Positions 14,003 to 24,865 of a stretch of 27,624 nucleotides of DNA are shown in pieces. Under the pieces are notes generated by a model. That model worked only from the letters and a program-made list of their open reading frames with translations. It did no database searches and was not told the origin of the DNA. The stretch's first letter is position 1; each line of letters begins with the position of its first letter. The position numbers were made by a program, and so were the translations under genes. Origin of the DNA: a virus; IMG/VR virus record IMGVR_UViG_3300027631_000104, positions 1 through 27,624 of that record; one strand, written 5' to 3'.

Positions 14003-14013
14003 ATATCTCCTTG

Positions 14014-14916: not shown

Positions 14917-15235
14917 ACTTTATTGTATCATTATACTTATCACTTGATCTTAGGTCTTAGGTCTTACTATATATTTAATATTTATTATTTATTGATTTAC
15001 TGACCCCCCGACCCCCCTAGAAAAATTATACTATTTATAATTTCGATGTCAAGCTTTTCTGATCAACTGCTTTTTTAGATTTCAGAAAATGTTAATATAT
15101 TTTTATCTTGTACGATACACACCACAGAAAAATTCGGACATTTTGGATAGACCGCACATATTGAGCGTGAGTGTGTCCCATATCACATGGGTTTTCTAAG
15201 ATTTATTTGCGACACGCCCGAGAAACACCTCTAAA
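14917..15235. other. Divergent intergenic region
   Basis: No gene is seen in 14917-15292. The left part holds the minus-strand -10 of the SGNH-like gene and a CTTAGGT tandem repeat (14949-14966); the middle has C-runs (ACCCCCCG, ACCCCCCT) and AT-rich DNA. The right part holds the first CRP-like site (15172-15187), an inverted copy of GGGCGTGTCG (15210-15219) and the first TGTCAG promoter. It is the switch point between the minus-strand block and the plus-strand microprotein region. Confidence 0.6.
15172..15187. promoter_or_regulatory. CRP/GlxR-like site 1 (TGTGT-N6-TCACA)
   Basis: One mismatch to TGTGA-N6-TCACA. Centre 72.5 bp before the -10 of the promoter at 15236-15257. Confidence 0.6.
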
Positions 15236-15257
15236 TGTCAGTCCCCCCTGCTACAAT
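15236..15257 (+). promoter_or_regulatory. TGTCAG-N10-TACAAT promoter 1
   Basis: First of sixteen copies with invariant 10-bp spacing; TGC precedes the -10. It drives the 58-residue ORF at 15293 through an AACGAAAGGAG leader. Confidence 0.8.
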
Positions 15258-15292
15258 AATAATATAACGAAAAACAAACGAAAGGAGTCACT

Positions 15293-15469
15293 ATGACTCA
15301 ACTTACAGAAACACTATATAGCACGATTGTCCACGATTTTCACAATGGTGGAGTAAAGTCCTCTTATGGACTCAATGCCTACACACGCAAGGCTCTATTG
15401 CGTGACCTACTCTCTAGCAAGGCTTGCTATTGTATCGAGTGCGTGTGTGAGGTATCTCACACCGCATAA
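15293..15469 (+). CDS. 58-residue Cys-rich microprotein
   Basis: MTQLTETLYSTIVHDFHNGG...; the C-terminal end has a Cys cluster (CYCIECVC, residues 46-53). The ribosome-binding site is AAAGGAG, 6 nt before ATG. It has its own TGTCAG promoter. The middle (LNAYTRKALLRDLL) is basic and helical. A CRP-like palindrome serving the next promoter overlaps its last codons. The 3' end carries regulatory DNA and coding sequence at once. Function unknown. Confidence 0.65.
   Translation: MTQLTETLYSTIVHDFHNGGVKSSYGLNAYTRKALLRDLLSSKACYCIECVCEVSHTA
15446..15461. promoter_or_regulatory. CRP/GlxR-like site 2 (perfect TGTGA-N6-TCACA)
   Basis: Inside the last codons of the 58-residue ORF. Centre 62.5 bp before the -10 of the promoter at 15500-15521. 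Confidence 0.7.
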
Positions 15470-15499
15470 GGCACACGCTACGGCGTGTCGGCTTGATAA

Positions 15500-15521
15500 T
15501 GTCAGCCCAATAGGCTACAAT
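15500..15521 (+). promoter_or_regulatory. TGTCAG-N10-TACAAT promoter 2
   Basis: A GGCGTGTCG repeat copy (15481-15490) precedes it and TTGATA lies 17 bp before the -10, so this copy also has a usable -35. It drives the five-gene operon 15557-16211. Confidence 0.8.
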
Positions 15522-15556
15522 TCCATTATAACCAACTAACGAAAGAAGAACAGACA

Positions 15557-15706
15557 ATGACAATCACATACTCACTATGGGACGGGGCACAATTCCTCGG
15601 TTTCTTTACCGCTACTAGCGCAGATGAAATGCTAAAGGTAGTAAGCGACTTACAAAAGGTTTCTAAAAATGTTGTAGCACACATGCGAAAGGTAGAACAG
15701 AACTAA
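15557..15706 (+). CDS. 49-residue microprotein
   Basis: MTITYSLWDGAQFLGFFTAT... then a helical, basic C-terminus (KVSKNVVAHMRKVEQN). The leader AACGAAAGAAG precedes the ATG. The beta-then-helix pattern and EML/VVSDLQ helix suggest a small folded domain. Its stop overlaps the next ATG by one base (TAATG). First gene of an operon of five; function unknown. Confidence 0.6.
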   Translation: MTITYSLWDGAQFLGFFTATSADEMLKVVSDLQKVSKNVVAHMRKVEQN

Positions 15707-15888
15707 TGTCATACGCATACTCTTACCAAACTAACTCAATAGATAAATACGCCTCTATCCAATCAGATGTCGCAGACGCATACGCATACCTTGATGAGGT
15801 AGATGAGGAACAACCTCCACTTGATGACTTTGATGACTCAGATGATGAGCAACTAGCAAAACTATACGCACTAACTTGGGAGGGCTAA
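15706..15888 (+). CDS. 60-residue acidic protein
   Basis: MSYAYSYQTNSIDKYASIQS..., then a strongly acidic run (DEVDEEQPPLDDFDDSDDEQ, residues 31-50) and a short C-terminus. No Cys. Such DNA-mimic-like acidity is sometimes seen in phage inhibitors of DNA-binding proteins, but that is only a possibility. One-base overlap with the previous gene shows coupling. Confidence 0.65.
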   Translation: MSYAYSYQTNSIDKYASIQSDVADAYAYLDEVDEEQPPLDDFDDSDDEQLAKLYALTWEG

Positions 15889-15891
15889 TAA

Positions 15892-16086
15892 ATGACTATT
15901 GAACTAAACGAATACGGCTTTATGTTCGACATGGGCGACTTTATCTATCTATCACTATCATGGGCGTTCATTATCTTGACCGCCGTTATTATTGTCGGTG
16001 CTAAGGTATACAATAAGATAAAGAATAAGCGAGTATTGGATACACTAGTAACCGATACAACTACTAACGATTTATGGAGTAACTAA
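15892..16086 (+). CDS. 64-residue single-pass membrane protein
   Basis: One strong hydrophobic helix at about residues 18-39 (YLSLSWAFIILTAVIIVGAK), followed by a basic stretch (KIKNKR) and a polar tail. The positive-inside rule puts the C-terminus in the cytoplasm. Overlaps the next gene by one base. Possibly a superinfection-exclusion or lysis-timing protein, but no family is recognised. Confidence 0.65.
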   Translation: MTIELNEYGFMFDMGDFIYLSLSWAFIILTAVIIVGAKVYNKIKNKRVLDTLVTDTTTNDLWSN

Positions 16087-16211
16087 TGACTACTAATCGC
16101 ATACTAACTACACTAGTCCAATTAGGTATCGGTATCCCCGCCCTACTTATGCTCCGCCTTGTATGGCGTGAGATCGTGTCCGATTATAGGGAGTGGGCTA
16201 ACTCACACTAA
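16086..16211 (+). CDS. 41-residue membrane microprotein
   Basis: MTTNRILTTLVQLGIGIPAL... with a hydrophobic helix at residues 6-26 and a charged tail (VWREIVSDYREWANSH). Its start overlaps the stop of the preceding membrane protein, so the two may act together. A composite repeat follows directly after its stop. Confidence 0.6.
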   Translation: MTTNRILTTLVQLGIGIPALLMLRLVWREIVSDYREWANSH

Positions 16212-16212
16212 C

Positions 16213-16280
16213 GCTACGGCGTGTCGGCTTGACAAAGTCAAGCTGGCCCGCAAAGGCACGGGGTCGGGCGTGTCGTTACG
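16213..16280. repeat. Composite intergenic repeat, copy A
   Basis: CGGCGTGTCG (16217-16226), then the perfect hairpin GCTTGAC-AAA-GTCAAGC (16227-16243), GGCCCGC-AAAGGCACGGGG and a second GGGCGTGTCG (16266-16275). It matches the copies at 17232, 18475 and 19721. Placed directly after a stop codon, it could act on RNA (terminator-like or protective hairpins) or bind a protein. Confidence 0.75.
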
Positions 16281-16306
16281 GGCACCTACTACGACCCCTG
16301 GAATTT

Positions 16307-16322
16307 TGTGAGATTTATCACA
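16307..16322. promoter_or_regulatory. CRP/GlxR-like site 3 (perfect TGTGA-N6-TCACA)
   Basis: Preceded by the conserved CCCTGGAATT. Centre 73.5 bp before the -10 at 16388. Confidence 0.7.
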
Positions 16323-16371
16323 TAGGTTGAGCGTCTTACTATGTGGAATTACTCGCTAGTAGGTAGATAAA

Positions 16372-16393
16372 TGTCAGCCCCCTAATGTATAAT
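16372..16393 (+). promoter_or_regulatory. TGTCAG-N10-TATAAT promoter 3
   Basis: Perfect -10. It drives the six-gene operon beginning at 16427 through an AACGAAAGAAGG leader. The upstream block TTGAGCGTCT...GGAATTAC.GGCTAGTA is shared with promoter 4. Confidence 0.8.
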
Positions 16394-16426
16394 GTCTACT
16401 ATAACAACAACGAAAGAAGGTCACTA

Positions 16427-16555
16427 ATGAACCTAGATGAATACAAGGCGCACGTTGAGGCGCAACGCAAGGCTAGCCTACTAAAGGCTATCGCAACAAT
16501 GTCAGAGGCTAATGATAAGATGTCCTCACTATTCAATACTAAGGAGGCTAACTAA
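16427..16555 (+). CDS. 42-residue helical microprotein
   Basis: MNLDEYKAHVEAQRKASLLK..., almost entirely helical and charged. Ribosome-binding site GAAGG with the AACGAAAG leader. A TGTCAG-N10-TAAGAT sequence inside it (16500) is a weak promoter-like match. Stop and next ATG overlap (TAATG). Function unknown. Confidence 0.55.
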   Translation: MNLDEYKAHVEAQRKASLLKAIATMSEANDKMSSLFNTKEAN

Positions 16556-16680
16556 TGGGTTATGTAGAAATCTTTCGCCTAGATGATGAGGGTGCTGGCT
16601 GGGTAGATTTATCCGAGGCAACACCTGATGAATTATTCAACATTGAATTAGGATTACTAAATGAGGGGGCGTTTGAATAA
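16555..16680 (+). CDS. 41-residue acidic microprotein
   Basis: MGYVEIFRLDDEGAGWVDLS..., acidic, beta-strand start followed by a helix (TPDELFNIELGLLNEGAFE). AAGGAGG precedes the ATG within the upstream gene. One-base stop/start overlap on both sides argues strongly for translation. Function unknown. Confidence 0.6.
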   Translation: MGYVEIFRLDDEGAGWVDLSEATPDELFNIELGLLNEGAFE

Positions 16681-16805
16681 TGGCTAGTAATTGGACAACA
16701 TTCGCAACTGTAAGAGATTACCCTAGCGGGCTAATGAATGAATGCGTATGCGGGCAAGTAGTCCTTGCGCCAAAAACACGACACGAGAATTGCGAGAATA
16801 AATAA
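16680..16805 (+). CDS. 41-residue Cys/His microprotein
   Basis: MASNWTTFATVRDYPSGLMN, then CVCGQ (22-26), an HENC end (35-38). The pattern CxC...HxxC may bind one zinc. Stop/start overlap with the previous gene and directly abuts the next ATG. Function unknown. Confidence 0.55.
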   Translation: MASNWTTFATVRDYPSGLMNECVCGQVVLAPKTRHENCENK

Positions 16806-16958
16806 ATGAAAAGATACACATTCGGCGTTTGGCTAGACATAGACGCAGAGGACGAAAATCAGGCGGTGTCTTTATTTGATAGCGTTGTGAAAAACACTTT
16901 TGTTTCAGACTCTTATTGTTTTGAATGGAAAGAGGTCGCAGATGAAATCGCAATTTGA
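16806..16958 (+). CDS. 50-residue microprotein
   Basis: MKRYTFGVWLDIDAEDENQA..., a beta-alpha-beta pattern (RYTFGVWLDI; ENQAVSLFDSVV; YCFEWKEV) that resembles a small ferredoxin-like half domain. The ATG follows the previous stop with no gap. The next gene begins within its end. No family recognised. Confidence 0.55.
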   Translation: MKRYTFGVWLDIDAEDENQAVSLFDSVVKNTFVSDSYCFEWKEVADEIAI

Positions 16959-17136
16959 AAAAGATTTAGAAATAAAAGAAAGTTTTATTGATTTACTAAA
17001 TGATGTTTATCCTACTGTAAAGATTGGCTACTCTACTTTTACACCCGCCGAAATTTTAGAATGTTGCGACCCAGTAGCATTTGCGATTGGCTTAGTTGAA
17101 CACGAGGATTATTTAGCAGAAATGGAAAATGAATGA
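16942..17136 (+). CDS. 64-residue hypothetical phage protein
   Basis: The start MKSQFEKDLEIKESFIDLLN is chosen because AAAGAGG lies 7 nt upstream of this ATG; a start at 16900 would lie deep in the preceding gene. Helical, acidic, ends EHEDYLAEMENE. The phrase FTPAEILECCDPVAFAIGLV is a pattern seen in small conserved actinophage proteins, but the function is unknown. The next gene overlaps it by four bases (ATGA). Confidence 0.6.
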   Translation: MKSQFEKDLEIKESFIDLLNDVYPTVKIGYSTFTPAEILECCDPVAFAIGLVEHEDYLAEMENE

Positions 17137-17231
17137 GCGACTTATTCGGATTTGAAAAAGCAATTCAATTAGATCACCTAACCGATGAGCAAATAAATCA
17201 GCTAGAGGAAATACTAAAAGATTATCAATAG
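17133..17231 (+). CDS. 32-residue helical microprotein
   Basis: MSDLFGFEKAIQLDHLTDEQ..., an ATGA overlap with the preceding gene. Helix-turn-helix-like length and acidic composition, but too short for a firm statement. Last gene of the operon; a composite repeat follows its stop. Confidence 0.5.
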   Translation: MSDLFGFEKAIQLDHLTDEQINQLEEILKDYQ

Positions 17232-17300
17232 ATAGCGGCGTGTCGCCTTGACAAAAGGTGATCCGCCCGCAAAAGCACGGGGTCGGGCGTGTCGTTATGA
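17232..17300. repeat. Composite intergenic repeat, copy B
   Basis: CGGCGTGTCG (17236-17245), then a hairpin whose stem is CGCCTT/AAGGTG here instead of the GCTTGAC/GTCAAGC stem of copies A and D, so pairing is kept while the bases differ. CCCGCAAAAGCACGGGGTCG and GGGCGTGTCG (17285-17294) follow. A third GGCGTGTCG copy lies at 17328-17337 followed by ATTTGACA. Confidence 0.75.
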
Positions 17301-17364
17301 AAGAGTTATAAAACCCCTGGAATTCTACGGCGTGTCGATTTGACAGACAAAACGGACATATCTA

Positions 17365-17380
17365 TGTGATTAGTATCACA
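17365..17380. promoter_or_regulatory. CRP/GlxR-like site 4 (perfect TGTGA-N6-TCACA)
   Basis: Centre 72.5 bp before the -10 at 17445, the same distance as site 1. Confidence 0.7.
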
Positions 17381-17428
17381 CCGCTTGAGCGTCTCAATAT
17401 TTGGAATTACTGGCTAGTAATGTGAAAA

Positions 17429-17450
17429 TGTCAGCCCTATCCGCTATAAT
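17429..17450 (+). promoter_or_regulatory. TGTCAG-N10-TATAAT promoter 4
   Basis: Perfect -10. Drives 17482 onward through AACGAAAGGTG. Confidence 0.8.
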
Positions 17451-17481
17451 TGCGGTATAACCAAACGAAAGGTGACAACTT

Positions 17482-17682
17482 ATGTCAGCAAATGTCTATT
17501 CCGTAGCAAACCTACTTGTAGGAAAAATGTATTACTCTCGCTCAGTATCGGGCGAAATTATTGACGCAGAAAAAACCGATAAGGTATGGTATGCGGATTG
17601 CGATAGTTACCGAATTCAGGTAAGGTCGCAAAATACTTTCAGAGATACTTATCGCTATGTAGCCGTAAAGGTAGGTGAATAA
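17482..17682 (+). CDS. 66-residue hypothetical protein
   Basis: MSANVYSVANLLVGKMYYSR..., beta-rich (VWYADCDSYRIQVR; RDTYRYVAVKVGE), resembling a small SH3-like barrel. The leader AACGAAAGGTG precedes it. It is adjacent to the next ORF with no gap. Function unknown. Confidence 0.6.
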   Translation: MSANVYSVANLLVGKMYYSRSVSGEIIDAEKTDKVWYADCDSYRIQVRSQNTFRDTYRYVAVKVGE

Positions 17683-17853
17683 ATGTTAGATACAAAATAC
17701 ATTGACGAAACCGAATTCTATTTCATAAAAGATGAAATAAAATTTCATTGTGACGAAAGCCAATTTGTTTATGTGTGTAAAGCACACGGCGAGCAAATGG
17801 GTTGCTATTATTGCCAATTTGACTACGATACGAAATGCGAGTGTGAAGGATAA
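17683..17853 (+). CDS. 56-residue putative zinc-binding protein
   Basis: MLDTKYIDETEFYFIKDEIK... with Cys23, Cys32, a CYYC pair (41-44) and CECE near the end (52-55). His and Cys spacing suggests a zinc finger. Overlaps the next ATG by one base. Function unknown. Confidence 0.6.
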   Translation: MLDTKYIDETEFYFIKDEIKFHCDESQFVYVCKAHGEQMGCYYCQFDYDTKCECEG

Positions 17854-17981
17854 TGAGCGAAATTGCTGGAATGTGGATTTGCGATAAATGCGATACTCTT
17901 GCCATTGTGTCAGTGGAAACTGATACAATACTAGTAACACAATGTAAATGCGTAACCAACGAAAGGGAAACTAATGTATAA
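17853..17981 (+). CDS. 42-residue zinc-ribbon microprotein carrying the next promoter
   Basis: MSEIAGMWICDKCDTLAIVS..., with CDKC (10-13) and CKC (31-33). Its coding sequence contains a full TGTCAG-N10-TACAAT promoter (17908-17929), and its last codons contain the AACGAAAGGG leader and the next start codon (17974, 8-nt overlap). A similar layout (Cys-motif peptide, embedded promoter, then leader) occurs at 22993-23197. Confidence 0.6.
   Translation: MSEIAGMWICDKCDTLAIVSVETDTILVTQCKCVTNERETNV
17908..17929 (+). promoter_or_regulatory. TGTCAG-N10-TACAAT promoter 5 (inside a CDS)
   Basis: Lies wholly within the 42-residue ORF; TGA precedes the -10. It would start RNA near 17936 and supply 17974 and 18177. 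Confidence 0.7.
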
Positions 17982-18180
17982 ACTAACTTGCGCCTATGAC
18001 TCAAATGCTCCGCATTGGTCAGCGGAATACGAAAACGAATTTGGTGCGTGGGAAAACTTTTTCCTATTCACCGATTGGGGATTTGCTAATGAATACTCAA
18101 CTGTAAATCTTTACACGCCAACAGGCAAATGCCATACACGAGTTTTTTATCGTGAAGGACGAAAGGTCGTAACAAAATGA
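17974..18180 (+). CDS. 68-residue hypothetical protein
   Basis: MYKLTCAYDSNAPHWSAEYE..., beta-rich with aromatic residues (WENFFLFTDWGFANEYSTVN), ends basic. AACGAAAGGG leader 8 nt before the ATG. Overlaps the next gene by four bases (ATGA). Function unknown. Confidence 0.6.
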   Translation: MYKLTCAYDSNAPHWSAEYENEFGAWENFFLFTDWGFANEYSTVNLYTPTGKCHTRVFYREGRKVVTK

Positions 18181-18368
18181 TGACAAGAAAAGACTATGTC
18201 GCAACCGCAGAAATTCTAAAGTATGCTAGCGACAAAGCGCACCCCGCTTTATTTTCTAAAATCGTAAATGATTTCGCTGAAATGTTTGCGAAAGATAATG
18301 AGCGATTTGATGTAACACGATTTCACGAAGCGAGTGGATACAATGTTCCTAAATTCACTTCAAGATAA
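18177..18368 (+). CDS. Conserved small phage protein (63 aa)
   Basis: MMTRKDYVATAEILKYASDK ... VNDFAEMFAKDNERFDVTRF ... The pattern TRKDY..A..L......F..DNxRFDxxRFxxASG is found in many small phage proteins of unknown function. Two helices followed by a basic end. The four-base ATGA overlap shows coupling with the preceding gene. Confidence 0.7.
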   Translation: MMTRKDYVATAEILKYASDKAHPALFSKIVNDFAEMFAKDNERFDVTRFHEASGYNVPKFTSR

Positions 18369-18474
18369 AGTAAAACGAATTCAGGAATTGCGCCGCAGTA
18401 ATGCGGCGCAACCTGTTCGTAATAAAAAAAAATACACACGCAAAATAAAACATAAGAATAAATTTGATCAATAG
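18343..18474 (+). CDS. 43-residue very basic microprotein
   Basis: MFLNSLQDKVKRIQELRRSN..., with a Lys/Arg-rich end (RNKKKYTRKIKHKNK). It overlaps the previous gene by 26 nt; the ribosome-binding site is weak (GAGTGG), so translation is moderately supported. Strong basicity suggests nucleic-acid binding. A GNRA-capped hairpin sits inside its coding region. Confidence 0.5.
   Translation: MFLNSLQDKVKRIQELRRSNAAQPVRNKKKYTRKIKHKNKFDQ
18390..18409. repeat. Perfect 8-bp hairpin with GTAA loop
   Basis: GCGCCGCA-GTAA-TGCGGCGC, a GC-rich stem with a GNRA-type tetraloop, in otherwise AT-rich DNA. No T tract follows. It could be an RNA-stability, RNA-processing or protein-binding hairpin. Confidence 0.7.
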
Positions 18475-18520
18475 CCCACAGCTCGGCCCGCAAAGGTACG
18501 GGGTCGGGCGTGTCGTTAAG
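18475..18520. repeat. Composite intergenic repeat, copy C (half unit)
   Basis: CAGCTCGGCCCGCAAAGGTA, then CGGGG and TC, then GGGCGTGTCG (18506-18515) and TTA. It keeps only the second half of copies A, B and D. Confidence 0.7.
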
Positions 18521-18522
18521 AC

Positions 18523-18538
18523 TGTGATTTAAAACACC
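18523..18538. promoter_or_regulatory. Degenerate CRP-like half-palindrome (TGTGA-N6-ACACC)
   Basis: Only the left half is perfect. Centre 51.5 bp before the -10 at 18582, which fits the helical phasing of the other sites. Weak by itself. Confidence 0.3.
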
Positions 18539-18565
18539 CTGGAAAATTGGGCGTGGCGTGGAAAA

Positions 18566-18587
18566 TGTCAGTCCGATCTGCTATAAT
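18566..18587 (+). promoter_or_regulatory. TGTCAG-N10-TATAAT promoter 6
   Basis: Perfect -10 with TGC extension. Drives 18618 through an AACGAAAGAGG leader. Confidence 0.8.
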
Positions 18588-18617
18588 TCCAATATCTACT
18601 AACGAAAGAGGTCCATT

Positions 18618-18827
18618 ATGGAACTATTTACTGTCGCTTGCTTGAACTATGAAATTTGTGGTGCTCAAGAAACTTTTGAAACTGAATCAGAATACGAAAT
18701 TCTTGGTGATGACTATATTTGCGCTGAATGCTATGCGTCTGATGAAATGTCATTCTTTGAAACTATTGGCTGGGCTGATAGCGACGCTCTTGCATCCGCT
18801 GGCCATGGTATGGATGAGGATTACTAA
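18618..18827 (+). CDS. 69-residue acidic putative zinc-ribbon protein
   Basis: MELFTVACLNYEICGAQETF..., with Cys8, Cys14 and CAEC (35-38), giving a C-x5-C...C-x2-C zinc ribbon, and an acidic C-terminus ending GHGMDEDY. Its own promoter and AACGAAAG leader precede it. The Gp88-like gene follows at once with its own promoter. Confidence 0.65.
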   Translation: MELFTVACLNYEICGAQETFETESEYEILGDDYICAECYASDEMSFFETIGWADSDALASAGHGMDEDY

Positions 18828-18829
18828 TA

Positions 18830-18851
18830 TGTCAGACGTCACCGCTATAAT
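18830..18851 (+). promoter_or_regulatory. TGTCAG-N10-TATAAT promoter 7 (leaderless type)
   Basis: The -10 ends 7 nt before ATG 18859 (TATAAT-N7-ATG), so the mRNA would begin at the start codon. No AACGAAAGG leader is present, unlike most sister promoters. Confidence 0.7.
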
Positions 18852-18858
18852 TACCCCT

Positions 18859-19578
18859 ATGAAACTAAAACGTTCTAATGATAGAAAGGTGGCTAACCTT
18901 GTCACAAAAAATGGAAAGCAAGCCGCAATTGCGAACACGTTCGGTCTCCCTGCTGGAAAGGCTTACTCATGCCCTGGTGCCACTAGTATTTGTGAGAGTG
19001 TATGCTACGCGGGAAAACTTGAAAAACTATTCCCAGGAGTAAAAACTAATCTGTTACACAATTGGGAATTGCTACGCAATGCAGACAATGACACAATGGT
19101 GCGCCTACTAGAAGAAATGATTGTTGATTTTGTTGCTGATTGTGATAAGAAGAATGCGCCTAAGTTATTCCGTATCCACTGGGACGGAGATTTCTTCAAT
19201 GATACTTATACTTATGCCTGGAAGAATGTTATCGATAACCATTCCGATATTCAATTTTGGGTTTACACACGTGTAAAGTCTGCAGCGCTTATTCTAAAGG
19301 ATGTCTCTAATTTATCTCTTTACTATTCAACCGATGATGATAATAAAGAAATAGCATTCGATTTGAAAACTAATTCTAAGGTCCGCCTTGCTTATCTAGG
19401 CAAGACATTCGCTTCAACCGAAGACACGATGAAAGAATTGACTGGCAAGCCTGGTGCTAAGTGCCCTGAGAATATGAAATCAATTCCACTTATTAGCAAT
19501 GCAGGGTCCGCATGTGTATCATGTGGCCTATGTGTCTACGGTAAAGCGGATATTAGATTTTCTGCGAGTAAAAAATAA
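18859..19578 (+). CDS. Gp88-like phage protein
   Basis: 239 residues from ATG 18859. This start is chosen because TATAAT ends 7 nt before it; the in-frame ATG at 18829 overlaps the TGTCAG box (it would add MSDVTAIITP). Family signatures: PAGKAYSCPGATSICESVCY at residues 31-50, IHWDGDFFN, WVYTRVKS and a C-terminal C-x2-C-x2-C cluster (CVSCGLC). These match the Gp88-type domain of actinobacteriophages, whose function is not established; the conserved Cys may bind metal. A small membrane ORF overlaps its end. Confidence 0.8.
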   Translation: MKLKRSNDRKVANLVTKNGKQAAIANTFGLPAGKAYSCPGATSICESVCYAGKLEKLFPGVKTNLLHNWELLRNADNDTMVRLLEEMIVDFVADCDKKNAPKLFRIHWDGDFFNDTYTYAWKNVIDNHSDIQFWVYTRVKSAALILKDVSNLSLYYSTDDDNKEIAFDLKTNSKVRLAYLGKTFASTEDTMKELTGKPGAKCPENMKSIPLISNAGSACVSCGLCVYGKADIRFSASKK

Positions 19579-19721
19579 TGTATGACGTTATCGGATCCAT
19601 TCTTGGAATTTGTTTAATTGCATTCTTGTGCTCACCAATTGTGCTAGCCGTGTACATGTGGAATGGTGCAAAATTTGATGATGATAATGACGGAATAGAA
19701 GATTTGCCTAATCGTTGGTAA
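19578..19721 (+). CDS. 47-residue membrane microprotein
   Basis: MYDVIGSILGICLIAFLCSP... A single hydrophobic helix at residues 4-28 and an acidic tail (FDDDNDGIEDLPNRW) whose DDDNDGIED run resembles a thrombospondin-3/EF-hand-like calcium loop. Start overlaps the Gp88-like stop by one base. Function unknown. Confidence 0.6.
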   Translation: MYDVIGSILGICLIAFLCSPIVLAVYMWNGAKFDDDNDGIEDLPNRW

Positions 19722-19800
19722 CGGCGTGTCGGCTTGACAAAGTCAAGCTGGCCCGCAATGTTGTGGGGGTTATCCACAGGCTTACGAGAGTTATCCACAA
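19721..19800. repeat. Composite intergenic repeat, copy D, with DnaA boxes
   Basis: CGGCGTGTCG (19722-19731), the GCTTGAC-AAA-GTCAAGC hairpin (19732-19748), a CCCGCA/TGTGGG hairpin, then two DnaA boxes in place of the CGGGGTCGGGCGTGTCG part of copies A-C. An inverted GGGCGTGTCG copy lies at 19834-19843. Confidence 0.75.
19770..19799 (+). promoter_or_regulatory. Two direct DnaA boxes
   Basis: Two exact copies of TTATCCACA (19770-19778 and 19791-19799) in the same orientation, 21 bp centre to centre (two helical turns), separated by a segment holding GGCTTACGAG that recurs in the second DnaA-box module. They match the consensus bacterial DnaA box. Confidence 0.75.
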
Positions 19801-19810
19801 CCCCTGGAAT

Positions 19811-19826
19811 TGTGAGAAATATCACA
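19811..19826. promoter_or_regulatory. CRP/GlxR-like site 6 (perfect TGTGA-N6-TCACA)
   Basis: Follows CCCTGGAATT as at site 3. Centre 57.5 bp before the -10 at 19876, off the helical series of the other sites. Confidence 0.65.
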
Positions 19827-19859
19827 AAAGCTGCGACACGCCCATAATGGATTAGGTAA

Positions 19860-19881
19860 TGTCAGTGGCAACTGCTATAAT
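19860..19881 (+). promoter_or_regulatory. TGTCAG-N10-TATAAT promoter 8
   Basis: Perfect -10 with TGC. Drives 19910 and 20116 through AACGAAAGG. Confidence 0.8.
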
Positions 19882-19909
19882 ACTCTTATCCAACAACGAA
19901 AGGTAACAA

Positions 19910-20116: not shown

Positions 20117-20382
20117 TGGGAAGCAATACAGCGTTAGATTTAGCAAGCGAGTTTGATTTAGAACAAGGTATTGCTTATCACTTACAGGGTAATCATTACC
20201 CGCCCGTTCCACTTTCTATGGTGAAGCCGTGTATCGATGCTATCGATGCTTGGTGGGATGAGGATTCAGATAGGTTGATCGAAATGCCTGAAGGCGTATC
20301 TTATCGAGGAGATAAGTTTGCCCCCGCTCACGCAATAATTGACCAACACCACTTACACGCTTGGCTACAAGAAAGTGATTAG
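20116..20382 (+). CDS. 88-residue hypothetical protein
   Basis: MGSNTALDLASEFDLEQGIA..., several Trp/His residues (AWWDEDSD; DQHHLHAWLQESD). Its stop codon lies inside the CRP-like site 7. The N-terminal DLASEFDLEQGIAYHLQ pattern is found in small phage proteins, but the function is unknown. Coupled to the preceding gene. Confidence 0.6.
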   Translation: MGSNTALDLASEFDLEQGIAYHLQGNHYPPVPLSMVKPCIDAIDAWWDEDSDRLIEMPEGVSYRGDKFAPAHAIIDQHHLHAWLQESD

Positions 20383-20389
20383 CATCACA
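20374..20389. promoter_or_regulatory. CRP/GlxR-like site 7 (AGTGA-N6-TCACA)
   Basis: One mismatch. Overlaps the stop codon of the 88-residue gene. Centre 62.5 bp before the -10 at 20444. Confidence 0.55.
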
Positions 20390-20427
20390 CAATAACTTTC
20401 TCAAATACTGAGATAGGGCTAGACTAA

Positions 20428-20449
20428 TGTCAGACCCCAATGCTATAAT
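20428..20449 (+). promoter_or_regulatory. TGTCAG-N10-TATAAT promoter 9
   Basis: Perfect -10 with TGC. Drives the ORF at 20479; the leader is slightly changed to AACAAAGAAAAGAGG. Confidence 0.8.
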
Positions 20450-20478
20450 TACAACCCTAACAAAGAAAAGAGGCAAAA

Positions 20479-20658
20479 ATGACAATAGATAATCATCTCT
20501 ATCAGGTTGGCGATTTATTCACCACCCTAAAGTCAAAAAAGACAGGTGTTATCAAAGAGATACACCCACAGGCATCTGGCTCGGTGCGTGTGCTACTGGA
20601 ACTACCTAGCAAGGAAACTCGCTGGACTTCAGTATCAGCCAAGACACTACTTGGCTAA
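20479..20658 (+). CDS. 59-residue basic beta protein
   Basis: MTIDNHLYQVGDLFTTLKSK..., beta-strands with a basic face (KKTGVIKEIHPQASGSVRVL, ETRWTSVSAKTLLG), resembling an SH3/KOW-like barrel with the VGD...G.I.EI pattern. The ribosome-binding site is AGAGG. Function unknown; nucleic-acid binding is possible. Confidence 0.65.
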   Translation: MTIDNHLYQVGDLFTTLKSKKTGVIKEIHPQASGSVRVLLELPSKETRWTSVSAKTLLG

Positions 20659-20766
20659 TAAGACGGAGGCATACACCATAATCGGGTGCTAAGCCACGAA
20701 ACAGGGACAGTTTAGGAGAGTATCTAGTCCAATGTCGTAAGTAAGAACTCTCCCCCCTTCGGGGGA
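20659..20766 (+). other. Non-coding segment with UUCG hairpin, possible structured 3' RNA
   Basis: No ORF. GGAGAGT pairs with ACTCTCC around a loop; then CCCC-TTCG-GGGG (20754-20765) forms a UUCG-capped stem just before promoter 10. The core CGTAAGTAAG followed by AACTCTCC resembles the CTGAGTAA elements at 21248 and 22762. It may be a terminator without T tract or an RNA structure. Confidence 0.45.
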
Positions 20767-20768
20767 AA

Positions 20769-20790
20769 TGTCAGACCCCCCTGCTATACT
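20769..20790 (+). promoter_or_regulatory. TGTCAG-N10-TATACT promoter 10
   Basis: Starts 4 nt after the UUCG stem. No CRP-like site is seen upstream. Drives 20829 through an AACGAAAGAGG leader. Confidence 0.8.
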
Positions 20791-20828
20791 ACAACTAACA
20801 ACAACCAACCAACGAAAGAGGAAAATAA

Positions 20829-21251
20829 ATGGCTAGAGGAAAAGCAATCTCAGTAAAAATCGCAACACCTAAAATCATCAAGGCACTAGAAACTAAGTTA
20901 GCACAACTAAACAAAGACTATGCCTCACAAGAAGCAAATGAAGCAAAGTATCAGAAGGCTTACAAGGCGTGGCAAAAAGAAATTGGTAAGTGGGCTATTG
21001 CTAATTTCTCAAAGGCAGAGAACCTTCGCACAAACTATCGCTCTTGGAACAAGACTCTCAATGTTGATTTTGACATCATCACAGAGGAAAGTTCTTTCCC
21101 AGTAGAACCTGAAAAGGACTACGAGGTAATTCATCAGCACTCTTATCGTGAGATGAAGCAGGAAATCGAAAACGCAATTCGTATCCTAAAAATGACAGAT
21201 GAGGAAACTGTAAATACTAGCACATACAATGCGGTTGCTCAGTATCTCTAA
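20829..21251 (+). CDS. 140-residue coiled-coil hypothetical protein
   Basis: MARGKAISVKIATPKIIKAL..., a long charged coiled coil (ETKLAQLNKDYASQEANEAK YQKAYKAW) with a Trp-rich middle and an acidic end. Ribosome-binding site AGAGG. The pattern ATPKIIKALE.KL resembles small phage proteins of unknown function. The stop leads into a conserved 3' element. No enzymatic motif. Confidence 0.65.
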   Translation: MARGKAISVKIATPKIIKALETKLAQLNKDYASQEANEAKYQKAYKAWQKEIGKWAIANFSKAENLRTNYRSWNKTLNVDFDIITEESSFPVEPEKDYEVIHQHSYREMKQEIENAIRILKMTDEETVNTSTYNAVAQYL

Positions 21252-21299
21252 ATAAACCAACGACCTGAGTAAGTCGCCAAACTGCTCTCCCTTCGGGGA
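21248..21299 (+). other. Conserved 3' RNA element (CTGAGTAA stem-loop), copy 1
   Basis: After the stop: CTAAATAAA, stem CGAC/GTCG around CTGAGTAA (21261-21276), CC, then AAACTGCTC, and a TCCC-TTCG-GGGA hairpin (21288-21299). The second copy at 22762-22800 has a different stem (AATC/GATT) and the same loop. Confidence 0.6.
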
Positions 21300-21322
21300 C
21301 AACTACTAACAAAGGTAATACA

Positions 21323-21583
21323 ATGGCAAATCGTTTCAGAGTAGAAATCTACGATGCTAACAAAGCAAATGACATCACGATTTATTCGGATCAAGGTGTT
21401 GATAAAGAGTATCTAACTGAATTAGTATTCAGTAACATCAGAAACTTTAGCGGAAAAATAAATGCTTATGTTTTTGATAACGTAAAGAAAAAGAAAACAA
21501 CTGCGATGTTTCTTGATGAGAGCACAGTTGAATTTAATAAAAATCTAATTAGCAATGCTAAAAAGGTAGAGGTGGGGATTTAA
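21323..21583 (+). CDS. 86-residue hypothetical protein
   Basis: MANRFRVEIYDANKANDITI..., beta-alpha-beta start with a basic stretch (VKKKKTTAMF) and a helical end. The ribosome-binding site is AAAGG with AACAAAGG instead of the usual leader. No own TGTCAG promoter; it is likely read from promoter 10. Function unknown. Confidence 0.6.
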   Translation: MANRFRVEIYDANKANDITIYSDQGVDKEYLTELVFSNIRNFSGKINAYVFDNVKKKKTTAMFLDESTVEFNKNLISNAKKVEVGI

Positions 21584-21650
21584 TCCTCAGCTCGGCCCCC
21601 GCTTTTGTGGGGTTATCCACAGGTTTACGAGTGCTTGTGGATAACCCTGA
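21584..21650. repeat. Composite intergenic repeat, copy E, with DnaA boxes
   Basis: CAGCTCGG, a CCCCGC-TTTT-GTGGGG hairpin, then two DnaA boxes facing each other and the CCCTGAAA block. It corresponds to the second half of copy D. Confidence 0.7.
21613..21644. promoter_or_regulatory. Two inverted DnaA boxes
   Basis: TTATCCACA (21613-21621, plus) and TGTGGATAA (21636-21644, the same box on the minus strand). The spacer begins GGTTTACGAG, matching GGCTTACGAG between the boxes at 19770-19799. Confidence 0.75.
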
Positions 21651-21655
21651 AAGTT

Positions 21656-21671
21656 TGTGAGAATGATCACA
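21656..21671. promoter_or_regulatory. CRP/GlxR-like site 8 (perfect TGTGA-N6-TCACA)
   Basis: Centre 62.5 bp before the -10 at 21726. Confidence 0.7.
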
Positions 21672-21709
21672 CCGCACAATTCGGACAAATGACTATCTAA
21701 TCTAGACAA

Positions 21710-21731
21710 TGTCAGTGCCACCTGTTATACT
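21710..21731 (+). promoter_or_regulatory. TGTCAG-N10-TATACT promoter 11
   Basis: TAGACA lies 17 bp before the -10, so this copy also has a fair -35. Drives the DUF932-like gene through AACGAAAGGA. Confidence 0.8.
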
Positions 21732-21760
21732 TACAACTAATCAAACGAAAGGAAATAAAA

Positions 21761-22765
21761 ATGGCTCATAATCTAGAAATGGAAAACGGCGAAGTTGCTT
21801 TTGCTCTTCGTGGTGCTCCTGCTTGGCACAATCTAGCAAATCGCATCTTTACACAAGATGAGGAAGTTACAACTGCAACAATGCTTGAAGAGGCAAAGTT
21901 AGCAAATTGGAATGTTCGTCTATCTCCAATCACCGAGCACATTCCAGAATCTTGGAATGATGTTTCAAGCGCATCTCTTGTCATTCGTGACAATCCATTC
22001 AAAAAGGGCGTAGATGTTCTCGCCACTGTTGGTAAGCGATACAAGCCAGTTCAAAATGAAGAACTGTTTGCGTTTGCTGATGCTATTCACGATGCTAACG
22101 CTGATTGCCGTTGGGAATCTGCTGGCTCATTGAAAAAGGGTAAAGTAGTTTTCGGAACTGTAGACATTCCCCGCACAATGGTTCTTGACCCACAAGGTGC
22201 CAATGATGAAACTAAACTCTATCTAATTGTTTGGACATCTCACGATGGTTCTGTTGCTGTTCAGGCAGCCGTTACACCTGTTCGTGTTGTATGCCAAAAC
22301 ACACTAAATCTTGCGATGCGTAATGCTAAGCAATCATTCAAGATTCGTCACACACAATCTGTTGAAGGTCGTATTCAAGTTGCTCGTGAAACTCTTGGAA
22401 TGGCTCTTGGTTATTTTGATGAGTTTGAAGTTGAGGCTAAGGCTCTATACGCTCAAGCAATTACCGATTCAGAATTTTCTAAATTGGTTCAATCAATTTA
22501 CCCAAAGCCAGAAAAAGATGCTAAGGGCGCAATCAAGAAATGGGAAAACAAAATTGTTCTCCTTGATGAGTTGTATCATAACTCACCAACTAACGCTACA
22601 ATCAAGGGAACAAAGTGGGGTGCGTTCAACGCACTTACTGAGCGCCTTGATTATTATCGTTCAGGTCGTGGCAACGGCGAAACTCTTATGGCTGGCGCAT
22701 CAGGGTTTGACCCAGTTCTAACTGCTGAGAAAAACAAAATCAAGAAATTGGTTTCTGCTTTCTAA
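21761..22765 (+). CDS. DUF932 phage/plasmid-like protein
   Basis: 334 residues, MAHNLEMENGEVAFALRGAP. The start of the family (GAPAWHNLAN...), KGVDVLATVGKRYKPVQNEE at about 86-105, KGKVVFGTVDIPR, TPVRVVCQNTLNLAM (168-182) and the RHTQSVEGRIQVARETLG segment are typical of the DUF932 (phage/plasmid TIGR03299) family, normal in length. Molecular function is unknown; members are common on phages and plasmids, sometimes near replication or recombination genes. Own promoter, strong leader; a structured 3' element and tRNA-Asp follow. Confidence 0.9.
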   Translation: MAHNLEMENGEVAFALRGAPAWHNLANRIFTQDEEVTTATMLEEAKLANWNVRLSPITEHIPESWNDVSSASLVIRDNPFKKGVDVLATVGKRYKPVQNEELFAFADAIHDANADCRWESAGSLKKGKVVFGTVDIPRTMVLDPQGANDETKLYLIVWTSHDGSVAVQAAVTPVRVVCQNTLNLAMRNAKQSFKIRHTQSVEGRIQVARETLGMALGYFDEFEVEAKALYAQAITDSEFSKLVQSIYPKPEKDAKGAIKKWENKIVLLDELYHNSPTNATIKGTKWGAFNALTERLDYYRSGRGNGETLMAGASGFDPVLTAEKNKIKKLVSAF

Positions 22766-22800
22766 ATAAATAAAATCCTGAGTAAGATTCTAAACTGCTC
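22762..22800 (+). other. Conserved 3' RNA element (CTGAGTAA stem-loop), copy 2
   Basis: CTAAATAAA, stem AATC/GATT around CTGAGTAA (22774-22789), CT, then AAACTGCTC, followed by ACAATTTTTTTC. Stem bases differ from copy 1 but still pair, a covariation sign of RNA structure. Confidence 0.6.
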
Positions 22801-22814
22801 ACAATTTTTTTCTT

Positions 22815-22888
22815 GGTCTGTTAGCTCAGTTGGTTAGAGCGCTACCCTGTCACGGTAGAGGTCGACGGTTCAAGTCCGTTACAGATCG
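22815..22888 (+). tRNA. tRNA-Asp (anticodon GUC)
   Basis: Complete cloverleaf: acceptor GGTCTGT/ACAGATC (one G-U), D arm GCTC/GAGC, anticodon stem CTACC/GGTAG with loop CTGTCAC (anticodon GTC), T arm GACGG-TTCAAGT-CCGTT. Discriminator G as expected for Asp; CCA is not encoded (GCA follows). It sits between the DUF932 gene and promoter 12 on the plus strand. Confidence 0.93.
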
Positions 22889-22920
22889 CAAAGCGCCCCC
22901 AAAGGTAAGGGATCAAAAAG

Positions 22921-22936
22921 TGTGTTACGAATCACA
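22921..22936. promoter_or_regulatory. CRP/GlxR-like site 9 (TGTGT-N6-TCACA)
   Basis: One mismatch. Centre 51.5 bp before the -10 at 22980. Confidence 0.55.
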
Positions 22937-22963
22937 AAAAAAATCCCTGAAAGCTATTGTAAA

Positions 22964-22985
22964 TGTCAGTGGGCTCGTGTATAAT
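22964..22985 (+). promoter_or_regulatory. TGTCAG-N10-TATAAT promoter 12 (leaderless type)
   Basis: Perfect -10, ending 7 nt before ATG 22993 (TATAAT-N7-ATG), without a ribosome-binding site. Same layout as promoter 7. Confidence 0.75.
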
Positions 22986-22992
22986 TCTCATC

Positions 22993-23649
22993 ATGACCAA
23001 CGAACTAGTATCAAGTAAATATACATTTGTCTGTGACCCAGATGAATGTGACTGCCTAATTGAATTAACATCATCTGACGGGTTTGGATTCCCATCAGGT
23101 GTGACAGAACTCACATGCCCGTGTGGTCGTAAGACCACCTTGGTGTCAGTGGTCAATGCTACAATTGCTCCTATAACCCAAACGAAAGAGGAAAAAATGG
23201 AACCAACAACAACACCAATCCCTGAGTCATATAACTCTAATCTATTGGTAACCTACAAAGTTATCCGTGGATTCTCAGATGCAGAATATGCAACTGACAA
23301 GATTACAAGTCTTGAGTGGGACCTACACAATGGACGCCAATCTCAGAAGACTGTCGGCGTTCTAAATAGCAAGATTGATTCTGCTAAAGAAATTATCTGC
23401 GAAGCATATGCAGACTCACAAGACCAAGACACATTGCGTGAAATCGCTGAGGCGCTTGGTATTGAACTTATCAAAGAAGTTGAATGGTCTGCATCTATTG
23501 AAGTTAGCGGAACATATTCATATAACATTCTTGAAAACGATTATGACTTAGACCTTGAGTCAGAAATTACAGATGCAATCTTTGCTGATTCACATAACGG
23601 TAACATTGAAATCAATGACCAAGAAGTATGTAATGTGCGTGAGAACTAA
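22993..23649 (+). CDS. Zinc-finger-led protein with nested downstream start
   Basis: 218 residues from ATG 22993, which is leaderless downstream of promoter 12; an upstream in-frame ATG at 22963 overlaps the TGTCAG box. Residues 1-60 hold Cys14, CDC (19-21) and CPCG, a probable zinc ribbon. Inside the frame lie a second promoter (23144-23165), an AACGAAAGAGG leader and ATG 23197, giving a 150-residue short form starting MEPTTTPIPESYNSN. The C-terminal part is acidic and helical (EAYADSQDQDTLREIAEALG). It could be one gene with two products or a recent fusion of two genes by loss of a stop. Function unknown. Confidence 0.6.
   Translation: MTNELVSSKYTFVCDPDECDCLIELTSSDGFGFPSGVTELTCPCGRKTTLVSVVNATIAPITQTKEEKMEPTTTPIPESYNSNLLVTYKVIRGFSDAEYATDKITSLEWDLHNGRQSQKTVGVLNSKIDSAKEIICEAYADSQDQDTLREIAEALGIELIKEVEWSASIEVSGTYSYNILENDYDLDLESEITDAIFADSHNGNIEINDQEVCNVREN
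23100..23115. promoter_or_regulatory. CRP/GlxR-like site 10 (perfect TGTGA-N6-TCACA, inside CDS)
   Basis: Overlaps codons of the zinc-ribbon part. Centre 52.5 bp before the -10 at 23160. Confidence 0.65.
23144..23165 (+). promoter_or_regulatory. TGTCAG-N10-TACAAT promoter 13 (inside CDS)
   Basis: TGC precedes the -10; AACGAAAGAGG and ATG 23197 follow. It would express the short form without the zinc ribbon. Confidence 0.75.
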
Positions 23650-23852
23650 TGTACTTTGAGTTGACCGCTCCCGATAGGCTATCTCTTGAGATGGCTTATT
23701 GGGATGCACAAATCACAGGGCTCGACCCTGAATTTATGCCGCCATTGACATTCAACATTGGAACTGGTAGTATTGAGAAAGTTAGTCGCATTCGTGATAA
23801 GTATAATTTAAAAGAATCATACTGGTCAGACAAAGAAGCGACAGGATACTAG
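23649..23852 (+). CDS. 67-residue hypothetical protein
   Basis: MYFELTAPDRLSLEMAYWDA..., ends LKESYWSDKEATGY. Start overlaps the previous stop (TAATG). Mixed alpha/beta with GLDPEFMPPLTFNIGTGSIE. No family recognised. Confidence 0.6.
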   Translation: MYFELTAPDRLSLEMAYWDAQITGLDPEFMPPLTFNIGTGSIEKVSRIRDKYNLKESYWSDKEATGY

Positions 23853-23860
23853 GAGAGATA

Positions 23861-24007
23861 ATGTCAGACTACAAAGATGGATTTCAAGACGGGTATAAGT
23901 TTGCTCGTGAAGAGATGATGGAAAAGTTATCAGAGATTGATATCGCTGACATCGATACTTGGATCCTTGACCGTCTTTCAGAAATGATTGAAGGTGGAAC
24001 ACTGTGA
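23861..24007 (+). CDS. 48-residue acidic microprotein
   Basis: MSDYKDGFQDGYKFAREEMM..., helical, ending IDTWILDRLSEMIEGGTL. AGGAGAG lies 5 nt before the ATG. The DGFxDGYxFAREE pattern occurs in small phage proteins. Stop overlaps the next ATG (TGATG). Confidence 0.6.
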   Translation: MSDYKDGFQDGYKFAREEMMEKLSEIDIADIDTWILDRLSEMIEGGTL

Positions 24008-24192
24008 TGGCTGAATGGCTTAAGTGTGATCAGTGTGCAGCTCAGGCAATGTGGGAAGCAAAGAAAGATGAGATGTCTCTTTATTTTTGTGGACATCATA
24101 AAAATTCACAGGGCGAGTCTCTTGTAGACTGGGCCCATGAAATGGTACAATTACTAAACTACGAGCAAGACCAACTAACAAAGGCGGAATAA
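24007..24192 (+). CDS. 61-residue putative zinc-binding protein
   Basis: MAEWLKCDQCAAQAMWEAKK..., with CDQC (7-10) and CGHH (28-31), a CxxC...CxHH zinc site like those of small phage zinc-finger proteins. ATG 24007 overlaps the previous stop (TGATG); a GTG at 24004 would add one Met. Directly before the conserved 122-residue gene. Confidence 0.65.
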   Translation: MAEWLKCDQCAAQAMWEAKKDEMSLYFCGHHKNSQGESLVDWAHEMVQLLNYEQDQLTKAE

Positions 24193-24193
24193 A

Positions 24194-24562
24194 ATGGGCG
24201 ACAGAGCAAACTTTGGATTCAGAGATTCCAAGGAAAATATTGTATTTCTATACGGCCACTGGGCTGGACATCGCATGCTAGAACAATTGGCGGATGCTGT
24301 TGCTGCAGCAGAGCCAAGGTGGCAGGATGAATCATATGCAACACGTATTGCTATTTCTAATTTAATTAAAGATGAGTGGGCTAGCGAAACAGGTTGGGGC
24401 ATATACGTAAATCAACTTGGGGACAATGAGCACAAGGTCCCTATTATTGATTGGAAGAATAAAACGTTTACATTAATGGAAGAAGACCTAGAAACTGTAG
24501 TGTTTAGTACGAGCCTTGAGGCATTTGTTGCTAAGTATTCCAGTCAACTAAGTATGGTATAA
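24194..24562 (+). CDS. Conserved actinophage protein (MGDRANFGFR family)
   Basis: 122 residues, MGDRANFGFRDSKENIVFLYGHWAGH... The motifs LYGHWAGH, RWQDESYATRIAISNLI and ETGWGIYVNQLGDNEHKVPI are widely conserved in phages of actinobacteria; the function is unknown. Beta-alpha mixed fold; no catalytic motif can be named. The AAAGG of the preceding gene's last codons is the ribosome-binding site. An extended -10 promoter of the downstream ncRNA overlaps its 3' end. Confidence 0.75.
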   Translation: MGDRANFGFRDSKENIVFLYGHWAGHRMLEQLADAVAAAEPRWQDESYATRIAISNLIKDEWASETGWGIYVNQLGDNEHKVPIIDWKNKTFTLMEEDLETVVFSTSLEAFVAKYSSQLSMV

Positions 24563-24563
24563 T
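24555..24563 (+). promoter_or_regulatory. Extended -10 promoter of a putative ncRNA
   Basis: TGGTATAAT (perfect extended -10) at the end of the 122-residue gene; no clear -35. Expected start at about 24570. Confidence 0.55.
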
Positions 24564-24569
24564 TAATCT

Positions 24570-24720
24570 AGGACTTTGGTCCTGGTTTTAATACAGAAAT
24601 GAAAATGGTGCGTCTAACTAGTCTACGGGCCAGGCGCTAAGTAAAGCGGTTTATTTCTTTCGTTGGAAATCAGCAGCCATATTCATTAACCCCCCAGCTT
24701 TTGTTGGGGGGTATTTTTTT
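24570..24720 (+). ncRNA. Putative ~150-nt phage ncRNA with 5' hairpin and terminator
   Basis: Starts 7 nt after the extended -10, exactly at the hairpin AGGAC-TTTG-GTCCT, and ends at the strong terminator 24689-24720. Internal segment GCGCTAAGTAAAGCGG resembles the CTGAGTAA elements. The only short frame inside (ATG 24600, 13 codons) lacks a ribosome-binding site, so coding is unlikely. It could alternatively be the 3' UTR of the operon ending at 24562. Confidence 0.55.
24689..24720 (+). terminator. Strong intrinsic terminator
   Basis: ACCCCCCA/TGGGGGGT 8-bp stem, 8-nt loop, followed by ATTTTTTT. The strongest terminator seen in the right arm; it closes the operon/ncRNA and insulates the Api92-like gene. 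Confidence 0.9.
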
Positions 24721-24782
24721 GCCCGCAAGGGCGAGGGTAACATATCTCTTTTACGAGGTCAATAGCAAAACTCCTGAAAATT
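24721..24782. repeat. Degenerate composite repeat, copy F
   Basis: GCCCGCAAGGGCGAGGGTAA, then TTTTACGAGGTC and CTCCTGAAAATT. It keeps the GCCCGCAA, TTTACGAG and CCTGAAA blocks seen in copies A-E, without a GGCGTGTCG copy or DnaA box. Confidence 0.55.
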
Positions 24783-24825
24783 TGTGATCTTGACCACAAA
24801 GCTTGGGGATGTGGTGTGTATCACA
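24783..24825. promoter_or_regulatory. Two CRP/GlxR-like sites (11 and 12)
   Basis: TGTGA-N6-CCACA (24783-24798) and TGTGG-N6-TCACA (24810-24825), one mismatch each. Centres 69.5 and 42.5 bp before the -10 at 24860. Confidence 0.5.
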
Positions 24826-24843
24826 CGATATTCTCTTCCCAAA

Positions 24844-24865
24844 TGTCAGTGGTCCATTGTATAAT
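24844..24865 (+). promoter_or_regulatory. TGTCAG-N10-TATAAT promoter 14
   Basis: Perfect -10. Drives the Api92-like gene through an AACGAAAGGA leader. Confidence 0.8.

Follow-up and report, generated by a model that had tools for sequence, protein, structure and literature searches.

The right-hand part of IMG/VR virus record IMGVR_UViG_3300027631_000104, a stretch of 27,624 bases called the window here, appears to be made up of small operons that would be transcribed from promoters of the form TGTCAG-N10-TATAAT and that probably contain early genes. Many of these operons are preceded by the palindrome TGTGA-N6-TCACA, a candidate binding site for the Crp/GlxR protein of the host, mostly placed whole helical turns from the promoter. 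The window is probably part of a phage infecting an actinobacterium. Its sites, promoters and two of its genes are listed below, with distances from the centre of each CRP-like site to the -10 element. Elsewhere we use the gap, which runs from the end of TCACA to TGTCAG.

15172..15187, + strand: CRP-like site, one mismatch, centre 72.5 bp before -10
15236..15257, + strand: promoter TGTCAG-N10-TACAAT
15446..15461, + strand: CRP-like site, perfect, centre 62.5 bp before -10
15500..15521, + strand: promoter TGTCAG-N10-TACAAT
16307..16322, + strand: CRP-like site, perfect, centre 73.5 bp before -10
16372..16393, + strand: promoter TGTCAG-N10-TATAAT
17365..17380, + strand: CRP-like site, perfect, centre 72.5 bp before -10; duplicate of the 16307 segment
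17429..17450, + strand: promoter TGTCAG-N10-TATAAT
18830..18851, + strand: site-less TGTCAG promoter of the GP88-family gene
18859..19578, + strand: GP88-family protein gene (PF17338)
19811..19826, + strand: CRP-like site, perfect, centre 57.5 bp before -10; half-turn class
19860..19881, + strand: promoter TGTCAG-N10-TATAAT
20374..20389, + strand: CRP-like site, one mismatch, centre 62.5 bp before -10
20428..20449, + strand: promoter TGTCAG-N10-TATAAT
20769..20790, + strand: site-less TGTCAG promoter
21656..21671, + strand: CRP-like site, perfect, centre 62.5 bp before -10
21710..21731, + strand: promoter TGTCAG-N10-TATACT of the DUF932 gene
21761..22765, + strand: DUF932 protein gene
22921..22936, + strand: CRP-like site, one mismatch, centre 51.5 bp before -10
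22964..22985, + strand: promoter TGTCAG-N10-TATAAT
23100..23115, + strand: CRP-like site, perfect, inside an open reading frame (ORF), centre 52.5 bp before -10
23144..23165, + strand: promoter TGTCAG-N10-TACAAT
24783..24798, + strand: distal CRP-like site, one mismatch, centre 69.5 bp before -10
24810..24825, + strand: proximal CRP-like site, one mismatch, centre 42.5 bp before -10
24844..24865, + strand: promoter TGTCAG-N10-TATAAT, two sites upstream
25568..25589, + strand: site-less TGTCAG promoter
26189..26210, + strand: site-less TGTCAG promoter

The window contains 12 matches to TGTGA-N6-TCACA with at most one mismatch. One hundred dinucleotide shuffles gave a mean of 1.24 (standard deviation 1.13) and never as many as 12. 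A sequence-only reading of this DNA had reported the six perfect and five one-mismatch sites listed above. Our rescan found all of them, reproduced each of their distances to the -10 and added a one-mismatch site at 12678, which has no TGTCAG within 1 kb downstream. The 11 gaps, in site order, are 48, 38, 49, 48, 33, 38, 38, 27, 28, 45 and 18. Taken by itself, the window makes the helical phasing proposed in that reading suggestive, at moderate significance: R is 0.67 at 10.1 bp, and P is 0.017 when positions are randomized and the period may vary from 9.5 to 11.5. The segment that starts at 17365 is a duplicate of that at 16307 (80% identity over 55 nt), and without it P is 0.043.

Scanning IMG/VR for perfect sites 28–58 bp before TGTCAG-N10-TANNNT gave at least 119 stretches. 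Such a composite pattern selects for sites, so we built comparison sets through the DUF932 protein, blind to the sites. Sets A, B and C are the IMG/VR loci found with the DUF932 protein of the window and with two diverged versions of it; 280 and 391 DUF932-encoding stretches were found with two possibly overlapping queries, and 80 of each were kept. DUF932 identity to the window is 90–100% in set A (80 loci), 43–56% in set B (61) and 50–53% in set C (80). At least one site-bearing promoter is present at 80/80 loci of set A, 42/61 of set B and 75/80 of set C. Sets B and C combined, which share two loci, have site-bearing promoters at 115 of 139 loci (358 of 963 promoters).

In set A, TGTCAG promoters occur at all 80 loci; of the 769 unique ones, 480 carry a site at gaps 0–111 (286 perfect and 194 with one mismatch). 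At gaps 0–99 there are 473, where permuted palindromes give means of 0.27 perfect and 2.25 one-mismatch promoters. The shuffles of the window and the permuted palindromes in set A together rule out a chance origin. An unbiased count of dyads picks out the same palindrome: in all three sets TGTGA-N6-TCACA is the dyad most often present at least three times per locus (79/80 loci in A, 25/61 in B and 65/80 in C).

The relatives turn the phasing from suggestive to strong. In set A, 400 of the 480 sites have gaps that differ by at most 1 bp from 18, 28, 38, 48 or 59, while 47 lie at 32–34 and 33 elsewhere; gaps 20–26 and 50–57 are absent. To limit the effect of inheritance, 1502 unique promoters, 751 of them site-bearing, were grouped by downstream protein into 120 clusters, and each cluster–gap pair was counted once. 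The 162 pairs have a best period of 10.1–10.3 bp with R = 0.60, or 0.71 when gaps 31–35 are excluded; the clusters are partly dependent, so the nominal p-value of this test is not to be taken literally. Inheritance from a few ancestral promoters could in principle produce a spacing pattern without functional meaning. The duplicated 16307 and 17365 segments fit such an origin, and orthologues often share a gap: the site of the DUF932 promoter, at 21656 in the window, lies at gap 37 or 38 in 80/80 set A loci. However, gaps also differ by about one turn within clusters. One cluster takes gaps near 18, 28, 38 and 48. At the 15500 promoter the gap is 38 in the window but 28 in the relative L230, where the flanks are similar but closer together by 10 bp. 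The empty gap ranges of set A and the GTTA repeats described below, which are unrelated in sequence and fall on nearly the same distances, also argue against mere inheritance, and we give this explanation almost no credence.

The sequence-only reading set aside the 57.5- and 69.5-bp distances as exceptions, and for 57.5 bp it needs correcting. That distance instead belongs to a conserved half-turn class of 58 promoters with gap 33 or 34, a value that recurs in several clusters and is found, as gap 33, in 37 of the 53 promoters of the 19860 cluster. We considered a hidden in-phase site behind this class and rejected it, as only 9 of the 58 have a one-mismatch site at gap 49. The Crp site of the E. 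coli malT promoter, near -70.5, may be a parallel to these half-turn positions. If the -10 element occupies -12 to -7, the candidate sites are centred at about -54.5, -64.5, -74.5, -84.5 and -95.5, and the half-turn class at -69.5. The comparison that the reading drew with class I CRP activation is borne out for the period, which is near 10.2 bp, but the absolute register appears shifted: in E. coli the canonical class I positions are -61.5, -72.5 and -82.5, and with the assumed start site the corresponding centres here would be -64.5, -74.5 and -84.5. Class I CRP-dependent promoters of E. coli also have upstream palindromes stepped by whole helical turns; the promoters described here differ from them in the TGTCAG element, set 10 bp from the -10, in a logo that lacks a -35 and in the extra half-turn class.

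The promoter element itself reads aaTGTCAG-N10-TATAAT. At the loci found with the composite pattern, the spacer is exactly 10 in 169 of 177 TGTCAG..TATAAT pairs with spacers of 4–24. The logo has no -35 hexamer, and TG frequently precedes the -10. T4 middle promoters likewise combine a consensus -10 with an element that is not a -35, the MotA box, at a set distance upstream of it; here the element is TGTCAG and the spacing 10 bp. A search of 12 long records for sigma region 4 (PF08281 only) gave four sub-threshold matches and so lends no support to a phage sigma factor as the reader of TGTCAG. At 18830–18861 and 22964–22995 an ATG follows the first base of TGTCAG by 29 nt, predicting near-leaderless transcripts. 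Four of the Crp sites have a CCCTGGAA/CCTGAAA block immediately upstream (16296, 19802, 21645 and 24772; repeat family D9).

The sites are confined to one block of the phage genome, in which the promoters are dense. In the 12 long records (98–116 kb, 35–40% G+C), 162 of 173 TGTCAG-N10-TANNNT matches fall within each record's densest 16 kb, and perfect sites number 71 in the 192 kb of promoter region versus 2 in the other 1120 kb. In record G039 (locus L254), three Crp sites are present at both contig ends (448, 1159 and 2371; 109190, 109901 and 111113), which points to a terminal or assembly repeat within the promoter region.

When 32 ORFs of the window were set against named phages, only 4 had a match. 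Three of these genes (one near 11.7 kb, GP88 and DUF932) have counterparts within the first 13 kb of Streptomyces phages of the Stanwilliamsviridae (cluster BE), where their order is unchanged; in the comparison with Stanwilliamsviridae-related actinophages, NrdJ stands at 66%. The DUF932 protein is about 50–52% identical to its best Streptomyces phage relatives, where it lies near the genome end, and the GP88-family protein is 50–53% identical (five best matches) to one encoded within the first 6.2 kb in the Streptomyces phage relatives. Terminal repeats often hold early genes, so by analogy early timing of the promoter block is likely. In BE1 phages the terminal repeats are about 11 kb (PMC5764925). 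Eleven stretches of named phages have no perfect Crp site and no excess of Crp sites; the stretches of Rhodococcus phage Dorin and of Annadreamy have no perfect site, and have 0 and 2 one-mismatch sites, respectively.

Other features of the window include recurrent blocks between operons at 15480–19758, some containing GGCGTGTCG and others made of GGCCCGCAAAGG (families D4, D7 and D8), which are perhaps terminators or replication elements. A tRNA-Asp(gtc) gene at 22815–22889 lies within the promoter block, shortly ahead of the site at 22921, and a tRNA-Ile(tat) gene lies on the minus strand at 14013–14088.

The site logo, TGTGAt.ta.aTCACA, agrees with the published GlxR consensus TGTGANNTANNTCACA of the C. 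glutamicum GlxR/Crp regulon (PMC4254451), in line with the actinobacterial consensus named in the sequence-only reading. T and A are also commonest at the central TA of that consensus, but the central letters of the logo are weak (A 0.5 bit, T below 0.3 bit). Among 317 one-mismatch sites, the A of TGTGA is changed 129 times, letters 3 and 4 of TGTGA twice and once, and letter 3 of TCACA never; some of these changes are inherited among related promoters. GlxR mostly activates, by recruiting RNA polymerase (PMC4254451). Compared with the GlxR regulon, the sites predicted here lie in a phage and serve many promoters of one block. A phage-encoded Crp was searched for and not found: the Crp-type helix-turn-helix domain (HTH_Crp_2) is present in 0 of 30 phage records and the cNMP-binding domain in 0 of 25 (controls were found in 14 and 10 of 14). 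Low-GC actinobacterial hosts are plausible given the low G+C, the literature and the presence of whiB in 11 of 12 long relatives. WhiB is reported to be exclusive to Actinobacteriota, and among cultured low-GC actinobacteria there are isolates of 'Ca. Planktophila' (PMC10202952).

We consider it likely, from these sequence patterns, that host Crp/GlxR activates the TGTCAG promoters. Host Crp, probably with cAMP, would bind the candidate sites and, from upstream, make contact with RNA polymerase, the simplest route being the alpha C-terminal domain; this contact would raise expression and tie the phage block to the carbon or energy state of the cell. The earlier proposal that phage operons are wired to the host in this way gains partial support from the agreement of the site with the GlxR consensus, its confinement, its phasing, the whiB genes of the long relatives and the failure to find a Crp-type domain in the phage records searched. 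What we infer is that host Crp binds, that it activates and does not repress, that cAMP is needed and that the block is expressed early.

The palindromes could alternatively be the operator of a phage-encoded DNA-binding protein outside the Crp family, their likeness to Crp sites then being coincidence or mimicry. Phages of Coruscantvirus, Tomasvirus, Karimacvirus and Samistivirus share Streptomyces as isolation host, yet each genus has a palindrome of its own; such variety within one slot resembles diverging phage specificities, and by analogy the GC palindromes of these genera could mean a phage-encoded factor. A factor specific to the phage, however, ought to drift. The palindrome of the window agrees with the GlxR consensus and is kept in metagenomic relatives (DUF932 43–56% identical) as distant as the Streptomyces phages (50–52%), which favours a sequence set by the host. 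We consider the phage-encoded alternative unlikely. Another alternative keeps host Crp as the binding protein but has it repress or silence the promoters, or takes the sites as decoys that titrate Crp off host genes. An infecting genome would bring about ten sites, and cAMP-CRP represses coliphage T1 promoters (PMC6737242). Yet the sites lie upstream of the promoter, mostly at phased distances, and decoys would require neither phasing nor a gene-by-gene pattern of presence and absence, so repression or titration is improbable.

Several observations weigh against activation by host Crp/GlxR. Half of the unique TGTCAG promoters (751 of 1502) have no site, in a pattern that is consistent gene by gene: in the clusters containing window promoters, the site-less share is 71/72 at 20769, 77/79 at 26189, 44/47 at 18830 (GP88) and 36/40 at 25568. 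The half-turn class is inconsistent with a single helix face. So is the DUF932 promoter of set C, whose gap is 63–68 in 15 of the 55 loci that were classified. Distances are about 2–3 bp farther from the -10 than in E. coli lac. The composite promoter pattern has no match in the genome contigs scanned, and a WhiB query of genome contigs matched 53 stretches by pattern, none of which was confirmed as a relative. Each Streptomyces-phage genus looked at has its own GC palindrome upstream of genome-end promoters, at comparable distances. Finally, some relatives are without sites. Among 20 whole records, five CRP-poor ones (46–102 kb) have no perfect site, one CRP-poor relative of 94 kb has a single perfect site and two Streptomyces-phage-like records have none; 12 site-bearing relatives have 4–11, the 11 including three repeated at both contig ends. 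The CRP-poor relatives retain TGTCAG promoters. Promoters kept without the palindromes, which the sequence-only reading had named as evidence against its proposal, are thus seen in part in one lineage (six records).

Some promoters of the CRP-poor lineage have a different repeat in phased positions. We picked by hand 27 loci of the CRP-poor and L009 types (e.g. L303, L312 and L351; 187 unique promoters), where the commonest upstream direct repeat is GTTA-N7-GTTA, with an 11-bp pitch, at 27 promoters. Its gaps are 17, 28–29, 38–40 or 49–50 in 25 of the 27, nearly the slots of the Crp site; nine of the ten repeats at gap 49–50 belong to the DUF932 promoter and are therefore not independent. At the stringency used, at least 135 of the 187 promoters have neither a Crp site nor a GTTA repeat. 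The DUF932 promoter shows a direct exchange of the two elements in a phased slot: among 17 L009-type loci (15 classified), 12 have a GTTA repeat at gap 49–50 and 3 a Crp-like site at gap 27. The Streptomyces PHO box is an 11-nt direct repeat of GTTCACC units (PMC6988585), and from this shared form a response regulator of the OmpR/PhoP type is a fair guess for the reader of the GTTA repeat. In L347, another relative without Crp sites, the palindrome GTTGC-N3-GCAAC occurs six times (e.g. 1338, 2004, 2752 and 6177) at varying promoter distances.

Palindromes also lie upstream of genome-end promoters in the Stanwilliamsviridae, many of them centred 43–46 or 51–54 bp before the -10. They are GC-rich and genus-specific, the promoters have a TTG-type -35 by eye, and G+C is about 53–55% in the three stretches measured. 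We read the palindromes in the first 11 kb of L207, L209, L212 and L213. The Coruscantvirus palindrome is 53.0 bp from the -10 in 12 of 14 cases and that of Tomasvirus 52–54 bp in 8 of 14; three Karimacvirus phages have theirs at 43–46 or 51–53 bp in 36 of 50, and four Samistivirus phages at 43–46 or 52–54 bp in only 11 of 25.

A broader reading is that the TGTCAG promoters of a widespread group of probable actinophages have a helically stepped activator slot that different lineages fill with the sites of different host regulators. We are evenly divided on this; the exchange at the DUF932 promoter counts in its favour. The putative fillings would be the Crp/GlxR site in most of the metagenomic relatives examined, the GTTA repeat in another lineage, and the GC palindromes of the Streptomyces phages.

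Use of host regulators by phages is already known for a few genes. Cyanophage genes under the host PhoBR system also use a host regulator, with a putative Pho box in 7 of 14 up-regulated genes (PMC10976474); the present case is a promoter block with helically stepped sites. Promoters of coliphage T1 (pir) also respond to host cAMP-CRP (PMC6737242), there by repression of a few promoters and here probably by activation of many. In the titles and the opening lines of the abstracts covered, we found no account of Crp/GlxR-phased early promoters in actinophages. What appears unusual is the extent and regularity.

A global regulator of the host apparently controls a whole gene block here, and the phage group concerned has hundreds of relatives in the viral collection. 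The regularity of the spacing amounts to a natural experiment on the geometry of activator and polymerase. If host Crp/GlxR does activate these promoters, infection would be tuned to how the host stands in carbon or energy. If the slot is modular, lineages would switch which host signal sets their expression, and the swapping of operators would let one read off how phages have moved from one host signal to another.

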